This document shows positions 2,574 to 19,082 of a stretch of 64,000 nt of DNA, one piece after another. The notes under the pieces were generated by a model. The model saw only the letters and a program-made list of their open reading frames with translations. It was not told where the DNA came from and made no database searches. Position numbers and translations under genes: made by a program. Origin of the DNA: Ignavibacteria bacterium (GTDB lineage: Bacteria; Bacteroidota; Ignavibacteria; Kapaibacteriales; UBA4661); assembly GCA_013298775.1 (NCBI GenBank), contig JAAFIV010000016.1:1-64000 (forward strand). Reading direction: 5' to 3'. Positions within the stretch are counted from its first letter, which is position 1; every line of letters begins with the position of its first letter.

Positions 2574-2657
2574 GTGAGGCTCTCAATTCTTATTGAGGGT
2601 CTCACTTTACCACGCAGTTACCGAAGTGAGAGCCTCAAGAAGAATTGAGACCCTCAC
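2574..2657. repeat. REPIN-like paired-hairpin repeat, copy 1
   Basis: Two 32-base arms in inverted orientation enclose a 20-base spacer. The left arm opens gtgaggctctcaat and closes attgagggtctcac, so it folds on itself. The right arm is close to its reverse complement. It lies between the convergent lysA and susD, just before their shared terminator. Its relatives at 4.3, 7.6-7.9, 8.4 and 19.0 kb form one family around the RAYT gene at 7866-8408. Confidence 0.85.
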
Positions 2658-2724: not shown

Positions 2725-4233
2725 TTACGGTCTATCCCACCACACACGAGCAAGGAAGATACCATACTCGTTTGCATTCACCCGTCCACGCGCTTCGGCT
2801 TCGTTGGCGGTGTTGAATATCTGCTCACTTTGCGGATATTGTGCGCGGCGAGGTACCAGACCGCCCGTGACATTTCCGGCAGGATTAAGCGTGCGAAGGC
2901 GCGGAAAGCCCGTTCTACGCCATTCTGCATACGGCTCCAAACCATCCAAAAATGTACAAATCCACTTTTGCAAAATGATTTGTTCCAACGCATTTGATTC
3001 ATTGTAAGCAATACGCGGCTGCGCAATATATCGAACAATCGAACTATCCGCAGGAATTGGCGGGTTGTTTGGGCAGATGGAATATTGCGTCATACCTGCA
3101 CGAATTCCTGCTTCGTAGTGTTCGCGGGCTGTGCGAGGTGTTGTCCAACCGCGCCATTTTGCTTCAGCCATGAGCAATTCTACTTCTGCGTAGGTAATAA
3201 AAATCGTTGGAGAATCACGGTTTGGCGAAGCAAGATGCGGACCTACTCGTGCAAGCGTATTCGAGTTCAATGCCTGACGCTGTGCGGACGTAATGCCATT
3301 CGGCAGACCACGATTTGGGCGTGGAGCTTCGTTGATAATGCGCAAACGAGGGTCATTGGTGCTGTCCAGCGTACTAACGAATAATTCACTGAGGCGATAA
3401 TCGTCGAACTGATTGAGCGTTTGCCACGTATTTGATTGCTGAATCCGTGCGCCGTTTGCTTGGTCAATCCACGCCATATCAGCGTTTGACTGCATCACAC
3501 CTGCGGCGATTGCTTCTTCTGCTTCGCGTTTTGCTGTTGCGGGGTCCACTTTTGATAGACGCATTGCAAGGCGCAAACGCAAGGAATTACCGAATCTGCG
3601 CCAGCGCGTGAGGTCGCCGCGATATACGCCGTCATTAATGGTCAATGTGCGTTTTGTATTGTCAAAAGCCGCAACTGCCTCTTTTAATTCCTTCAACATA
3701 TCGCGGTAAATTGCCTCTTGCGTATCATATTTCGGAGTGAAATTGCGGTCGTAGAAGCCGCGTCCTGCCTCGAAGTACGGCACATCGCCAAACAAGTCGG
3801 TAATGCGGTGAAATACGAATACTTTCCAAATACGCGCAGCCGAAAGAATGTTTACATCGTTCGGATTTTTCTTTGCGCGTTCTACAATATCCGTTGCAAA
3901 CTTCACCACGCCCGGCTGACCAATTACGCCGCGTCCAGCGTACCACCACTCCCACTGAGCGTTTGGCATGCCGCGATACATTTCTGGACCAAACTCAGCT
4001 GTTTTTGGAGAAAGGTGCTGCACCACGCATGAAATGGCGGTGTAGTTATAGGTTTGCTGCTCGAAGTTGTCCCCCGCCGTGCGGAGTTGCATATTGGAAA
4101 ACATGAGCAAAGGGTCAATATCCGTTACCTGCGTGGGATTGGTGTTTAATTGCTCAAAGCCCGCCGTGCAGCTTGTTAGCCACAGTCCAAGTGCGGCAAA
4201 GAGCGCGAGACTACTGCTTTTTAAGGTTTTCAT
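2725..4233 (-). CDS. SusD/RagB-family nutrient-binding outer-membrane lipoprotein
   Basis: SusD-type lipoproteins sit on the cell surface, capture oligosaccharides or peptides and lid the SusC transporter. This one has 502 residues with a signal peptide and clear lipobox LTSC (lipid Cys22), followed by the NTNP motif usual after the tether of the SusD_2-like branch. Helical TPR-like segments typical of the fold follow, and the tail ends in NEYGIFLARVWWDRP. It is the second gene of a susC-susD pair. The 141-base gap to susC contains a REPIN, unusual for a pair normally only a few bases apart. The downstream hairpin at 2658-2706 likely ends the transcript. The substrate cannot be read from the sequence; the neighbours suggest a glycan. 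Confidence 0.93.
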   Translation of the reverse strand: MKTLKSSSLALFAALGLWLTSCTAGFEQLNTNPTQVTDIDPLLMFSNMQLRTAGDNFEQQTYNYTAISCVVQHLSPKTAEFGPEMYRGMPNAQWEWWYAGRGVIGQPGVVKFATDIVERAKKNPNDVNILSAARIWKVFVFHRITDLFGDVPYFEAGRGFYDRNFTPKYDTQEAIYRDMLKELKEAVAAFDNTKRTLTINDGVYRGDLTRWRRFGNSLRLRLAMRLSKVDPATAKREAEEAIAAGVMQSNADMAWIDQANGARIQQSNTWQTLNQFDDYRLSELFVSTLDSTNDPRLRIINEAPRPNRGLPNGITSAQRQALNSNTLARVGPHLASPNRDSPTIFITYAEVELLMAEAKWRGWTTPRTAREHYEAGIRAGMTQYSICPNNPPIPADSSIVRYIAQPRIAYNESNALEQIILQKWICTFLDGLEPYAEWRRTGFPRLRTLNPAGNVTGGLVPRRAQYPQSEQIFNTANEAEARGRVNANEYGIFLARVWWDRP

Positions 4234-4275: not shown

Positions 4276-4364
4276 GTGAGGGTCTCATTTCTTAATGAGG
4301 CTCTCACTTTCTTTCTGGTTAGCATTGCCGAAGTGAGACCCTCAATAAGAATTGAGAGCCTCAC
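4276..4364. repeat. REPIN-like repeat between susC and susD, copy 2
   Basis: The element has two 32-base hairpin arms. The left arm (4276-4307) carries a matched pair of changes against the common form: position 13 is t instead of a, and position 20 is a instead of t. Positions 13 and 20 pair with each other in the stem, so the hairpin is preserved. The right arm ends tgagagcctcac at 4364. It sits inside the presumed susC-susD transcript. Confidence 0.87.
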
Positions 4365-4374
4365 GCAGAGCCGC

Positions 4375-7300
4375 TTAGAACTTCAGCGTAAGGTTTACGC
4401 CGTAGCTGCGTGTGCTTGGAAGCGAGTTGTATTCCAAACCTTGCGCGTTGCCGTTGCTGTAATTCGATTCCGGGTCCACGTTAGGAATGTTGGAAAACAA
4501 AATCGCAGCATTGCGCATAACGAAGGAAATACGCGCTCCGGTAAGAACATTGCTGAGGAACGAATCGCGCAGCATATCACTTGTAAAGGTGTAACCAACC
4601 GTGATTTCGCGGAGCTTCACAAAACTTGCATCATACATGAAGTTCTCCGTAATGCCGCCGTAGCTCGACCAAAAGTCTTGCACGTAGGCGCGGCGCGTAT
4701 TCGGCACATACATTGGTGCAGCAGTGGTTCCGGCATTCATCACGCCAACAGCGAGAATACTATCAGGGCGTGCGCCTTCGCGTCCTACAAGTGTGCCTTT
4801 ATTCTGCCCGGTGATGTACGAATTTGCATTGGTGAGCGAGAATATTTTGCCGCCAACGCGGAAATCCACCAGTGCGCTTACCGTAAAACCAAAAATGTTG
4901 AACGAATTCGACCAGCCGCCGATAGCGTCTGGAACGGCATTTCCCAAGTCTCTTGCAACGGGGTCACGCACGGGCAAACCTGTACGAGCATCATACACAA
5001 GCGGAAATCCAGGTTGTGAAGAATCACGTAACTGCGCCACGCCACGAATAACGCCATACGCCTGACCTTCCACTGCAAGCACCGTCGCGCCTGAGCGAGC
5101 ATCGCCCAGCGTGAGATTGCGCAAGCCCGGATAGAGTTCCGCAACTTTATTCCAGTTACGAGCGATATTGAACGAGGTTTCCCACGTAAATTCAGGTGTT
5201 TTCACAGGTGTTGCGGTGATAAGCAGCTCCACGCCTTCATTCACAATGCGTCCGGCGTTGATGAGTGCGCCAGTAAAGCCGCTTGTTGGCGTAATCGAAA
5301 TCGGAATAATCTGATTGCGAACATCTTGCTGATAGTATGTGAAGTCAATACCGAAGCGACCTTCAAAGAATTTCAAATCCAAACCTGCTTCAATGTTGTT
5401 GGAGATTGTTGGTTTTAATGCACCATTTGGAATGTTGAATTGCGGAGCTTGTGCCAAAATCATGTTGGTATTGCGTCCAGCTGTGTACGGAAGCGCGGCG
5501 TAGGCATAGAGAAGTTGCAACTGATAGGGGTCGGTGTCGCCGCCCACTTGCGCCCACGAAGCGCGTATTTTCCCAAGCGGAATATCTTTTTGCAAACCAA
5601 ATGCTTCCGTGAAATTGAATGTTGCATTGACGGACGGATAGAAATACGAATTGTTTGCGGCGGGAAGCGTTGAAGACCAGTCGTTACGCGCTGTTGCTTC
5701 CAAGAACAAGAAATCCTTGTACGCAAGCGTTGCCGAGCCGTAGAAGGAGTTTATCATTTTTTGGCTAAGAGCATAGCCCGGTTCACGAACAACGGTGTTC
5801 GTTACAGCAAAAAAGTCGCGGCTGATAAATTGCGAACCCAAAATCTGGAACTGCTCGTTTTTGCGGAACATCGTGTTTCCGCCACCATTGATTGTGAGGC
5901 GAAAGTCTTCCGACAAGGCTTGGTCGAAGGTTACGAGGAAATCTGCGTTGATTTCTTCTTGAAAAATGTTGCGTTCCAAAATATCGCCGTCGGGCTTGTT
6001 CAATGTGCCTTGCGGGTCAATTTGCGCTTGGCGGAAGTTGTAGGCATCTCGTCCGGCACGAACCATCACCGAAAGCGGCTCTGCTACTTGATAGCGAAGT
6101 GAGGCATTCGCAATTAAGCGGTCGCGGAAGGTAGGGTTGCGATTTTCAAACACTGACCAAAAAGGATTTGGGCTGAAATTATCGCGCGTTTGCCAACGGC
6201 GTTGAATATCAAGATTGCTGGTTGGCGTTGGATTGCGATAGTCACGAAGCAAGTTAATATCAAGGCTGCGAGGAATGCTATTCAGTGAGCGTGCCGGATT
6301 ATCAGCAGCATCGGACAAGGAAGGACGATTTGGTGCAGTTTCGCGGATGTAGTTTGCTTTCACATCAGCCGTGATGCGGTCTCCAAGCGTTGCTTGACCA
6401 CGAGCCGTCAGCGTAAGACGGTTTAATGCGGTGTTTGGGACAATGCCGATATTATCCATGTTCGATGCAGAAAAGCGAAAATTCGCTGTCTGGCTGCCGC
6501 CTGTAAAGGCAATGGTATTCGTAATGGTACGACCAGTTTGGTAGAAATCGCGGATGTTATTCGGCTGTGCAACGTAAGGACGCATCACTCCGTCGAAGAA
6601 CATTTGCTGTGAACCGTCAAGACGCGCACCCCATGAATTTGTTCCCAGAAGCAGCACACCTGCTTGTGTTGCAGGAACTACGCCTCGGTCGCCGTGTCCG
6701 TATTCATTTTGGAAATCGGGCAAAACAAGTGGCGTATCGAAGGTGAGATTGCCATTGTATTCCACGCCAATTCCCTCGCGAGCAATACCTTTTTTTGTGG
6801 TAATCACAATCACACCGTTTTGAGCGCGAGTGCCGTACAGAGCAGCAGCAGCGGCACCTTTGAGAACGCTGATTGTTTCAATATCATCAGGATTGATGCT
6901 TTGAATACCATCGCCGAAGTCCGTACCACCAAACTGTCCTGCTTGGTTGGGCGATTCGTTGTCAATCGGAATACCGTCCACCACGTAAAGCGGTTGGTTA
7001 TTTCCTGTCAGTTGCTTTTCACCACGAATAACCACGCGGCTCGAACCACCAACGCCCGTCTGACCAATGTTTACGCGCACTCCGGCAACTTTACCAACAA
7101 GAGCATTTGCGACGTTCAATTCACGTGCTTGTGTAAGAGATTCACCCGAAACGGTAGAAATGGCGTAACCAAGCGACTTGCGCTCGCGCTCAATACCAAT
7201 CGCCGTAACAACGACTTCATCCATCAAGACATCGTCTAATGCCAGAGAAAGAGCAACTACGCCACTTTCCGGCACTTTGGTTTCTGCTTTTTTGTACCCA

Positions 7301-7554
7301 ACAAGGCTTGCAACGAGTGTTTGTCCTGTTTGTGCGGAAATGGTGAAATTGCCCTCACGGTCGGAAATTGCACCGCGCAACGACCCTTTGGCAATGACTT
7401 TTACGCCAGCAAGCGGCTTTCCACTGTCTTTTGTGGTGATTTTTCCCGTAACAGAACGGGCTTGAGCAAATACCTCTCCGCTTGCGAAGAAGAGCATGGC
7501 CAAAAGAGCCACACACCGCATAAACAGAGAGATACGAGGTAGAACATTATTCAT
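4375..7554 (-). CDS. SusC/RagA-family TonB-dependent outer-membrane transporter
   Basis: This is the TonB-driven outer-membrane channel that imports the ligand held by SusD. The 1059-residue protein has a signal peptide ending in VFAQ, and a carboxypeptidase-regulatory-like domain (about 35-115: VTGKITTKDSGKPLAGVKV). A DEVVVTA box near 112 precedes the plug domain (QPLYVVDGIPIDNE and ISVLKGAAAAALYG are SusC hallmarks). A long beta-barrel ends in aromatic LTLKF. The length is normal for the family. Its start lies only 311 bases from the RAYT stop codon, and that gap is almost all REPIN sequence, so any promoter must lie within or beside those repeats. Together with susD it forms the core of a polysaccharide-utilisation-type locus. 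Confidence 0.95.
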   Translation of the reverse strand: MNNVLPRISLFMRCVALLAMLFFASGEVFAQARSVTGKITTKDSGKPLAGVKVIAKGSLRGAISDREGNFTISAQTGQTLVASLVGYKKAETKVPESGVVALSLALDDVLMDEVVVTAIGIERERKSLGYAISTVSGESLTQARELNVANALVGKVAGVRVNIGQTGVGGSSRVVIRGEKQLTGNNQPLYVVDGIPIDNESPNQAGQFGGTDFGDGIQSINPDDIETISVLKGAAAAALYGTRAQNGVIVITTKKGIAREGIGVEYNGNLTFDTPLVLPDFQNEYGHGDRGVVPATQAGVLLLGTNSWGARLDGSQQMFFDGVMRPYVAQPNNIRDFYQTGRTITNTIAFTGGSQTANFRFSASNMDNIGIVPNTALNRLTLTARGQATLGDRITADVKANYIRETAPNRPSLSDAADNPARSLNSIPRSLDINLLRDYRNPTPTSNLDIQRRWQTRDNFSPNPFWSVFENRNPTFRDRLIANASLRYQVAEPLSVMVRAGRDAYNFRQAQIDPQGTLNKPDGDILERNIFQEEINADFLVTFDQALSEDFRLTINGGGNTMFRKNEQFQILGSQFISRDFFAVTNTVVREPGYALSQKMINSFYGSATLAYKDFLFLEATARNDWSSTLPAANNSYFYPSVNATFNFTEAFGLQKDIPLGKIRASWAQVGGDTDPYQLQLLYAYAALPYTAGRNTNMILAQAPQFNIPNGALKPTISNNIEAGLDLKFFEGRFGIDFTYYQQDVRNQIIPISITPTSGFTGALINAGRIVNEGVELLITATPVKTPEFTWETSFNIARNWNKVAELYPGLRNLTLGDARSGATVLAVEGQAYGVIRGVAQLRDSSQPGFPLVYDARTGLPVRDPVARDLGNAVPDAIGGWSNSFNIFGFTVSALVDFRVGGKIFSLTNANSYITGQNKGTLVGREGARPDSILAVGVMNAGTTAAPMYVPNTRRAYVQDFWSSYGGITENFMYDASFVKLREITVGYTFTSDMLRDSFLSNVLTGARISFVMRNAAILFSNIPNVDPESNYSNGNAQGLEYNSLPSTRSYGVNLTLKF

Positions 7555-7572: not shown

Positions 7573-7704
7573 TGTGAAAGTATTTGTGTGAGGGTCTCAA
7601 TTCTTATTGAGGCTCTCACTTCTTTGGTAACTGCGTGGTGTGAAAGTATTTGTGTGAGGGTCTCAATTCTTATTGAGGCTCTCACTTCTTTGGTAACTGC
7701 GTGG
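7573..7704. repeat. 66-bp tandem duplication carrying a REPIN arm
   Basis: The unit starting tgtgaaagtatttgtgtgag at 7573 is repeated exactly from 7639 to 7704. It contains the left REPIN hairpin arm (7588-7619, again at 7654-7685) plus the linker ttctttggtaactgcgtgg. The first copy therefore has one orphan arm and the second is part of a complete REPIN. It lies directly upstream of susC. Confidence 0.92.
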
Positions 7705-7744
7705 TGGTAGAAGTGAGACCCTCACTAGGAAGTGAGAGCCTCAC
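7654..7744. repeat. REPIN-like repeat upstream of susC, copy 3b
   Basis: A 91-base element: left hairpin arm, 27-base spacer containing gtaactgcgtggtggtag, and a right arm of the variant form gtgagaccctcac-taggaa-gtgagagcctcac. It is identical over its full length to the next copy (7764-7854), 110 bases away, so the duplication is recent. Confidence 0.9.
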
Positions 7745-7763
7745 AGGAAATTCAAGCTATGAT

Positions 7764-7854
7764 GTGAGGGTCTCAATTCTTATTGAGGCTCTCACTTCTT
7801 TGGTAACTGCGTGGTGGTAGAAGTGAGACCCTCACTAGGAAGTGAGAGCCTCAC
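7764..7854. repeat. REPIN-like repeat between RAYT and susC, copy 3c
   Basis: Identical in all 91 positions to 7654-7744. It ends 11 bases before the RAYT stop codon. The whole 311-base gap between RAYT and susC is repeat sequence apart from short linkers, and no other gene is visible in it. Confidence 0.9.
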
Positions 7855-7865
7855 GGGAGAAGTAA

Positions 7866-8408
7866 TTACCGCCAATATTTTTCTGGCTGGTGATGTACTT
7901 GTTCAGAGAAATGGCGAAATTCCTCAACCGTTGGAAAGTATGCTTGCACAAGGTCTTTTTGGGGCAACGTACCATTACGCAATCCAACATAATCTTGATA
8001 GCTGGAGAACTTCCATTCATGCGGCTTTACGACAAGTTTTGCCCGCACTGGATTATCATGAATATATGCGATGACGGCTATAAGGTATCGTTCATCATCA
8101 ATCAAAAGAGCTTTGGTATGCTGTTGAAACAAGCTCCCGCTCCGCTCAACAGCCCTGTTCAATGCTCGTGTATAGGATGATAATAATTTCCCGAACATCA
8201 TCCCCACGTTATCACATTTCTCTTTCCCCCGAATCAAAAAATGAAAATGCGTTGGCATGAGACAATATGCGATTGTATCAACATAGTCATCCAACATTGC
8301 GCGATATTTTTTTAAGAAAAAGCCATAGTTTTCTTCGGTGCGAAATACCGTTTCTTGTGCGTTGGAGCGGTTAAAAACGTGATAATATGAACCATTAACG
8401 ATGTTCAT
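7866..8408 (-). CDS. REP-associated tyrosine transposase (RAYT, IS200/IS605-like Y1 family)
   Basis: RAYTs are single-copy, host-kept relatives of IS200/IS605 transposases that bind and nick REP hairpins and are thought to spread them. The 180-residue protein starts SYYHVFNRSN near residue 7. It has the HUH metal site THFHFLI (H54-F-H56), a candidate catalytic tyrosine Y79 in SSYTRALNR, and the family signature YIHDNPVRAKLV followed by KFSSYQDY (115-140). I use the ATG at 8408. The frame stays open 36 bases further to a TTG, but those codons run into a REPIN, so they are probably not translated. REPINs flank the gene closely on both sides (7588-7854 and 8432-8528), the arrangement expected if this enzyme acts on that repeat family. 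Confidence 0.9.
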   Translation of the reverse strand: MNIVNGSYYHVFNRSNAQETVFRTEENYGFFLKKYRAMLDDYVDTIAYCLMPTHFHFLIRGKEKCDNVGMMFGKLLSSYTRALNRAVERSGSLFQQHTKALLIDDERYLIAVIAYIHDNPVRAKLVVKPHEWKFSSYQDYVGLRNGTLPQKDLVQAYFPTVEEFRHFSEQVHHQPEKYWR

Positions 8409-8431
8409 TGATTTTTCGTCTTCGATGTCTT

Positions 8432-8528
8432 GTGAGGCTCTCAATTCTTATTGAGGGTCTCACTTTGGTTATTGCTTTGGTTATTGAGTGGTAGAAGTGA
8501 GACCCTCACTAGGAAGTGAGAGCCTCAC
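8432..8528. repeat. REPIN-like repeat upstream of RAYT, copy 4
   Basis: Left arm 8432-8463, a longer spacer with the partial direct repeat ttggttattg, and a right arm ending tgagagcctcac at 8528. It starts 23 bases upstream of the RAYT start codon and fills the gap to the preceding hydrolase gene on the same strand. Confidence 0.87.
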
Positions 8529-8586
8529 AAGAGGTTACGGGCGTAATGGTAAAAGTGAGAGCCTCACAAGAGGTTACGGGCGTAAT
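8516..8586. repeat. Direct duplication joining a REPIN half-arm to a gene end
   Basis: A 32-base sequence (gtgagagcctcacaagagg followed by ttacgggcgtaat) occurs at 8516-8547 and again at 8555-8586, a period of 39 bases. The second copy contains the stop codon and last codons of the GHL10 gene, so the gene's 3' end has been copied together with half a REPIN arm. Confidence 0.88.
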
Positions 8587-18901: not shown

Positions 18902-18931
18902 GGTGCGTGTACGTTTGTGTATTATGGAAAA

Positions 18932-19082
18932 ATGAGACCCTCAATAAAAAAATGAGAGCCTCACAGGAGAGAGCGAAACTACGTGAGGGTCTCAATTCTT
19001 ATTGAGGCTCTCACTGCGATATTGCTTTGTATTGCGCGTTGTTCCTGAAAGTGAGACCCTCAATAAGAATTGAGAGCCTCAC
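18932..19082. repeat. REPIN-like repeat plus a single degenerate arm, copies 5a/5b
   Basis: The complete element at 18983-19082 has a left arm starting gtgagggtctcaat and a right arm ending tgagagcctcac, separated by a 36-base spacer. A lone imperfect arm (18932-18964, with an A-rich loop) precedes it. Both lie between the symporter and the ROK kinase genes on the same strand. This is the most distant copy of the family from the RAYT gene in the window; I see none from 19.1 to 64 kb. Confidence 0.87.

Follow-up and report, generated by a model that had tools for sequence, protein, structure and literature searches.

The window analysed here is a stretch of 64,000 nucleotides from contig JAAFIV010000016.1 of an Ignavibacteria bacterium, whose genome (G000; 5.19 Mb in 95 contigs) was used as the source genome throughout. 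A 410-aa decarboxylase encoded in the window has its best match among named records, at 92%, in Candidatus Kapaibacterium sp. isolate PH2015_12D_48_15, followed by further MAGs of Kapaibacterium and Ignavibacteria, and on this ground the host is regarded as Kapaibacteria-like. Near its beginning lies a susC-susD gene pair on the minus strand, and most of the 141-base gap between the two genes is taken up by an 89-bp REPIN. The features of this locus, with arm positions numbered 1 to 32 and facing positions written in the form 13/20, are as follows.

2725-4233, minus strand: susD-like lipoprotein gene, downstream member of the gene pair
4276-4364: REPIN in the susC/susD gap, two convergent arms with a 25-base spacer
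4276-4307, plus strand: focal REP arm (type X), GTGAGGGTCTCATTTCTTAATGAGGCTCTCAC, with T-A at 13/20 and G-C at 7/26
4333-4364, minus strand: partner arm (type Y), with A-T at 13/20 and C-G at 7/26
4375-7554, minus strand: susC-like TonB-dependent receptor gene, upstream member of the gene pair
7866-8444, minus strand: gene for a REP-associated tyrosine transposase (RAYT), with the ATG at 8408 as its likely start codon

Of its 32 positions, the focal arm shares all but two with the arms at 7588, 7654, 7764 and 18983: it has T for A at 13 and A for T at 20, as the initial annotation of this DNA had correctly reported for 4276-4307. The accompanying claim that these two positions face each other is borne out by the predicted fold: as single-stranded DNA, the focal arm forms, at -9.1 kcal/mol, a stem of 14 pairs closed by a loop of four bases (z -7.45; none of 200 shuffles as good), in which 13 and 20 are partners and pairing is kept. 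The complement of the arm folds at -6.2 kcal/mol, and the G.T wobbles of the arm become A.C mismatches there; the wobbles may therefore mark the strand of the arm. When all 89 nt of the REPIN are folded together, the best structure is a single long hairpin (-25.1 kcal/mol). The annotation had gone further and called the double change direct evidence, within one window, of a maintained structure. This is more than the observation can bear, as a single double change is weak alone and T-A is one of the states that segregate at 13/20, found in 4 of the 151 arms of the source genome (fetched stretches plus window) and in 11 of the 142 distinct arms of the genus set, so that the focal copy may simply have inherited it.

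Thirteen arms lie within the window at no more than three mismatches. In addition to the focal REPIN, the following members of the family are present.

2574-2657: REPIN, arms 2574-2605 (plus) and 2626-2657 (minus)
7588-7619, plus strand: REP arm of the common A-T form
7654-7744: REPIN, arms 7654-7685 (plus), A-T, and 7713-7744 (minus), C-G
7764-7854: REPIN, near-copy of the REPIN at 7654-7744, with an identical spacer
8432-8528: REPIN on the 5' side of the RAYT gene, arms 8432-8463 (plus) and 8497-8528 (minus)
8555-8567, minus strand: half arm, GTGAGGCTCTCAC on the minus strand
18983-19082: REPIN, arms 18983-19014 (plus) and 19051-19082 (minus)

A third state of 13/20, C-G, occurs within the window, in the arms at 7713, 7823 and 8497, and 7/26, which is either G-C or C-G, constitutes a second compensated position. 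The two near-identical REPINs form a tandem at 7649-7855 beside the RAYT gene, which represents a local duplication, and degenerate arm halves adjoin the REPIN at 18983-19082 (18913-18983).

The arm family was delimited with a search pattern in which 24 stem bases were fixed and the eight central bases were free, positions 13 and 20 being outside the pattern. At up to three mismatches, the source genome yielded 197 matches and the reversed control pattern 0, so the family is more than chance would produce. From 92 fetched stretches and the window, 151 distinct arms were recovered once overlaps (<20 bases) had been collapsed. A genus set of 142 distinct arms was assembled from five related genomes (G000, G001, G002, G006 and G007), leaving aside second-strand readings of palindromic places, both readings of G001:C112 and the row G000:C21:25890. 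Since a compensated pair counts as two of the three mismatches allowed in the pattern searches, the sampling leans against double changes. Arms are present in five of the eight genomes of the genus and in none of 72 other genomes of the order.

The family has the organization of REPINs. In 43 convergent pairs both arms are within three mismatches of the pattern, and they enclose diverse spacers of 8-92 bases (median 27). The arms are also predominantly extragenic, as only 15 of 138 lie inside closed ORFs of at least 120 aa, compared with 942 of 1820 random positions. They are not canonical GTAG REPs: the GT[AG]G foot is absent, the common arms start with GTGA or GCGA, and the 5' flank holds no fixed motif.

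Covariation at 13/20 is pronounced. Among the 99 arms of the source genome without a pattern mismatch, the pair is A-T in 49, C-G in 47 and T-A in 3, and is therefore intact in all 99, whereas shuffling of the 3' letters leaves 48.2 paired on average and 64 at most; the covariation test that had been proposed for an alignment of the genome copies thus gives a strongly positive answer. With arms at up to three mismatches included, 146 of 151 are paired, versus a shuffle mean of 76.8. At 14/19, conversely, 115 of 151 are paired, which is not above shuffles (mean 112.5, maximum 117). The proposed 14-bp stem consequently holds for the fold, while the stem under constraint comprises about 13 pairs. 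At pairs 1-12 of the 151 arms, the non-consensus cells consist of 30 double Watson-Crick changes, 25 broken pairs, 12 pairs turned into a wobble by a single change, and 4 wobbles turned into Watson-Crick pairs. The double changes fall at 11/22 (17), 12/21 (9), 2/31 (3) and 1/32 (1), and 7/26 has two consensus states.

Because the copies share ancestry, changes were also counted on minimum-spanning networks of distinct arms; these figures give the minimal number of changes, unlike a dated phylogeny, and recombination between arms is possible. In the network of the source genome (69 arms), 9-11 double changes occur at stem partners and all of them preserve pairing, compared with no pair-preserving ones when partners are slid by one or two positions and 0-1 when slid by three. 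The genus network (142 arms, five tie-breaks) contains 27-32 stem-partner doubles, 26-30 of which are pair-preserving, versus 0 for partners slid by one or two. When the changes of each column are redistributed at random, the mean is 7.7 and the maximum in 2000 runs is 17, against 30 observed. The outcome was similar when G000:C21:25890 and three rows from the order search were included (146 arms; 28-31 doubles, of which 27-29 preserve pairing, against 0-2 pair-preserving ones with slid partners), and again when the dropped readings were also added (151 arms; 30-37 doubles, of which 27-33 preserve pairing, against 0-2 with slid partners).

Apart from its hairpin symmetry, each arm of the genus set comes close to being a direct repeat of the 13-mer GTGAGGSTCTCAC, and each half close to being a palindrome. 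For this reason the direct-repeat and half-palindrome registers were tried as well, and were rejected with 2-4 and 0-2 symmetric doubles, respectively. As these registers give far fewer symmetric doubles, the arm hairpin is the conserved symmetry. Together, these data support the maintenance of arm hairpin pairing across the family, and to this extent the earlier statement that structure, and not only sequence, is maintained was right, although at most stem positions the letter itself is fixed as well. Maintenance is moreover a property of the replicating family and not of each site, since one or more of pairs 1-13 are broken in 26 of the 151 resident arms.

The stem positions differ in the kinds of change that they accept. 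Across the 142 distinct arms, Watson-Crick swaps are found at pairs 1, 2, 7, 9, 11, 12 and 13, rarely at 14, and never at pairs 3, 4, 5 and 10. The two wobbles are kept as G.T in most arms (6/27 in 126 of 142, 8/25 in 131 of 142) and have been replaced by Watson-Crick pairs in 13 and 9 arms, respectively; in the source genome, each haplotype with such a replacement occupies one locus. This pattern tentatively suggests a two-layer arm code for a RAYT lineage that has no GT[AG]G guide, in which a core is read as letters and the rest as shape, and in which an X arm and a Y arm are preferentially combined in one REPIN. Under such a code, which we consider possible and far from probable, the invariant pairs 3-5 and 10 and the two offset G.T wobbles might serve as the sequence and strand mark, and pairs 1, 2, 7, 9, 11, 12 and 13 might be read for shape only. 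The joining of X and Y could then spoil a long perfect palindrome and leave each arm foldable. For each position, the scheme predicts whether a RAYT without the guide would read the base as a letter or only as part of a pair.

The RAYT of the window scores 24.8 bits with PF01797 (Y1_Tnp), above the Pfam cut-off of 23, which identifies a Y1 transposase domain. It was aligned with relatives from G007 (62% identical), G002 (50%) and G006 (47%). All four proteins match NF047646 and no other NCBIfam family; the window protein does so at 66 bits (E 3.3e-18), below the cut-off of 80. HFH and the tyrosine of AY.H.NP are conserved in all four, and we take these to be the HUH motif and catalytic tyrosine of RAYTs. 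THFH and FQ are likewise common to the four proteins, while the tyrosine motif reads YIHDNP in the window, YIHNNP in G007 and G002, and YTHNNP in G006. When an AlphaFold model of the window RAYT (mean pLDDT 68.3, moderate confidence) is compared with solved structures, 4er8 ranks first (E 2.7e-07, 16% identity over the structural match); this entry shows the E. coli enzyme in complex with a REP hairpin. Searches of solved structures with the single RAYT sequence returned none, and with a profile only 4er8 (E 0.0077); a tblastn search of database genome contigs for named RAYT relatives also returned none.

Arms of the same family lie on both sides of the RAYT gene in the window (contig C8 of the source genome), on contig C1 of the same genome and in G007, which is the arrangement of REPIN-flanked RAYTs. 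The copy on contig C1 (L170:1420-2130) is 64% identical to that of the window, carries an in-frame TAA and is flanked by GCGAG-type arms. One of these arms has compensated changes at both 2/31 (C-G) and 12/21 (G-C), and compensated changes at these pairs are also found in the arms flanking the G007 gene. The RAYT of G002 is flanked by a REPIN (L168:1398-1471) built from an unrelated palindrome, which also forms a 14-pair stem with a 4-base loop, and its two arms differ from each other at pairs 1, 11 and 12, all three of which are compensated. Two observations count against the link between RAYT and arms: in G001 there are arms but nothing that matches the RAYT, and no related arm was found in the 3.5 kb fetched around the RAYT of G006.

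In our judgement, folding is probably selected at the step at which the RAYT mobilises the arms as folded single strands, and not through the expression of susC and susD. The two convergent 32-nt REP arms, each foldable alone, would be spread by the RAYT, an HUH/Y1 endonuclease, encoded at 7866-8444. As the enzyme would act on an arm folded as single-stranded DNA, only arms still able to fold would be copied, and a one-sided stem change would spread only if the facing base had already changed to match or did so simultaneously. Propagation of matched changes would give rise to the A-T, C-G and T-A states at 13/20 and to the swaps at other pairs, with pairs 3, 4, 5 and 10 and the two G.T wobbles presumably being read as sequence in addition. 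We infer mobilisation by the RAYT of the window, its reading of folded single strands and selection at mobilisation from the following comparisons.

Among variant haplotypes of the source genome, 4 of 7 compensated ones are present at more than one locus, compared with 3 of 32 others (broken pairs 3 of 22, single wobble changes 0 of 10; Fisher p 0.012, this and the rank tests resting on the 7 compensated haplotypes). Resident arms decay, as the broken pairs noted above show. Furthermore, the gene pair is present in two relatives, G006 and G004, and nothing in their orthologous gaps comes closer to an arm than 10 mismatches in 24 bases, which points to the REPIN having been inserted here, or lost there, since the species parted. 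The spread of the compensated haplotypes, the decaying residents and the arm-less orthologous gaps together point to selection on the arms at copying. Two observations count against mobilisation: three haplotypes with a broken pair occupy two or three loci each, and no transposition event, target-site signature or read of an excision was seen.

Compensated pairs could also arise if template switching during replication, a form of quasipalindrome correction, copied one stem half onto its counterpart, with no selection for folding. Such a process is proposed for stem maintenance in PMC8794818, and it would fit the focal arm, whose nearest relative differs at exactly partners 13/20 and among whose ten nearest arms there is no one-step intermediate, as well as pairs 11, 12 and 13, which are adjacent and near the loop. 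Yet the swaps at 7/26 lie between the retained wobbles 6/27 and 8/25, which a switched tract of more than one base would erase; pairs 3, 4, 5 and 10 never swap; and compensated variants reach several loci more often than others. X and Y could also arise by half-arm exchange, and template switching could be behind some of the swaps, but as the overall explanation it has in our view a small chance of being right. Chance differences at several pairs between a few old arm lineages, later amplified with no structural selection, are very improbable as an account of the pattern. Four core haplotypes do hold most copies, so that independent events are far fewer than copies; even so, the doubles recur on many backgrounds, at seven or eight pairs and in the stem register, and their observed number was not reached in any of the redistributions.

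If selection for folding is accepted, the structure selected might instead reside in the transcript or in the REPIN as a whole. REPs affect mRNA decay in E. coli, and a resident hairpin between susC and susD could be kept because it terminates transcription or stabilises mRNA. The plus-strand arm followed by TTTCTTTC does score as terminator-like (1 found versus 0.6 expected), but this strand opposes susC-susD transcription, and the arm does not qualify as an intrinsic terminator. The element is also missing from the orthologous gap of both relatives with the gene pair, 26 of 151 resident arms carry a broken pair, and no Rfam family was matched at gathering score, the sub-threshold matches being mostly miRNA-like hairpins. 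A local RNA role of the resident hairpin is therefore unlikely, and we give it little credence. A long hairpin formed by pairing of the two REPIN arms is the form described for the REPINs of Pseudomonas fluorescens SBW25 in PMC3116915, and it is also the best fold of the 89-nt element. However, unlike what such pairing would favour, and in a departure from the SBW25 REPINs, the two arms of a pair are here less alike than random: arms of the same REPIN differ by 5.12 mismatches versus 4.60 for randomly re-paired arms, and the 7/26 type is the same for both arms in 13 of 43 pairs (a number that includes the two near-copies of the window) versus 20 expected, the fraction of re-pairings as low being 0.016. 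In the long form, two further mismatches result from the T-A change of the focal arm. The single-arm hairpin accordingly remains the preferred structure, and selection for the long one has hardly any claim to being correct.

Compensatory changes are described as common in the REPIN hairpins of SBW25 in PMC3116915, so the phenomenon itself is not new; what is presented here is a known type of phenomenon in a little-studied bacterial group. According to the same paper, SBW25 REPINs and the present ones share two inverted REPs, a variable spacer, an extragenic location and a link to a RAYT. The remark on SBW25 concerns the hairpin across the spacer of a REP doublet, whereas the covariation reported here lies within each arm. 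One noticed double change has in this way led to a clear test, in which the arm hairpin covaries and the long REPIN hairpin and the other arm symmetries do not.

A comparison with E. coli shows similar overlap. PMC8266576 and PMC6006769 describe convergent hairpin arms of two subtypes (Y and Z) for REP/BIME elements, and E. coli TnpA-REP (4er8) shares with the present system a Y1/HUH transposase flanked by arms and a conserved irregularity of the stem. Processing of E. coli REPs requires, according to PMC8266576, a REP structure with a bulge, presented as a single strand; in the present arms, two G.T wobbles replace the bulge and there is no GT[AG]G foot. In PMC6006769, subclass 2.6 of the TnpA-Y1 proteins comes from Bacteroidetes and has atypical REPs without GT[AG]G. 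The related host group, the YIH.NP motif and REPs without GT[AG]G are shared with this subclass, but its motifs (NH[LIV]H, WQ and YIH[QN]NP) are common to the window RAYT only in part, as THFH stands in place of NH[LIV]H and FQ in place of WQ. The secondary structures of subclass 2.6 are also called weaker in that paper, whereas the hairpins here are strong. No description of the present arm family was found in the literature searched (REP covariation, hairpin and transposase; Kapaibacter palindromes).

The REPIN spacers frequently start with TTTGGTAA or TTCGGTAA and end with AAA, and some contain repeated GGTAAAG; these sequences may belong to the arm as a conserved extension or may constitute a separate small repeat. 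Half arms also occur in tandem, with successive hairpins sharing a half, as at C1:55896-55946 and C23:180872-180922 of the source genome, and contig C42 of the same genome (stretch L127:666-960) carries about ten tandem 27-bp units with one half arm each (GTGAGGGTCTCAC).
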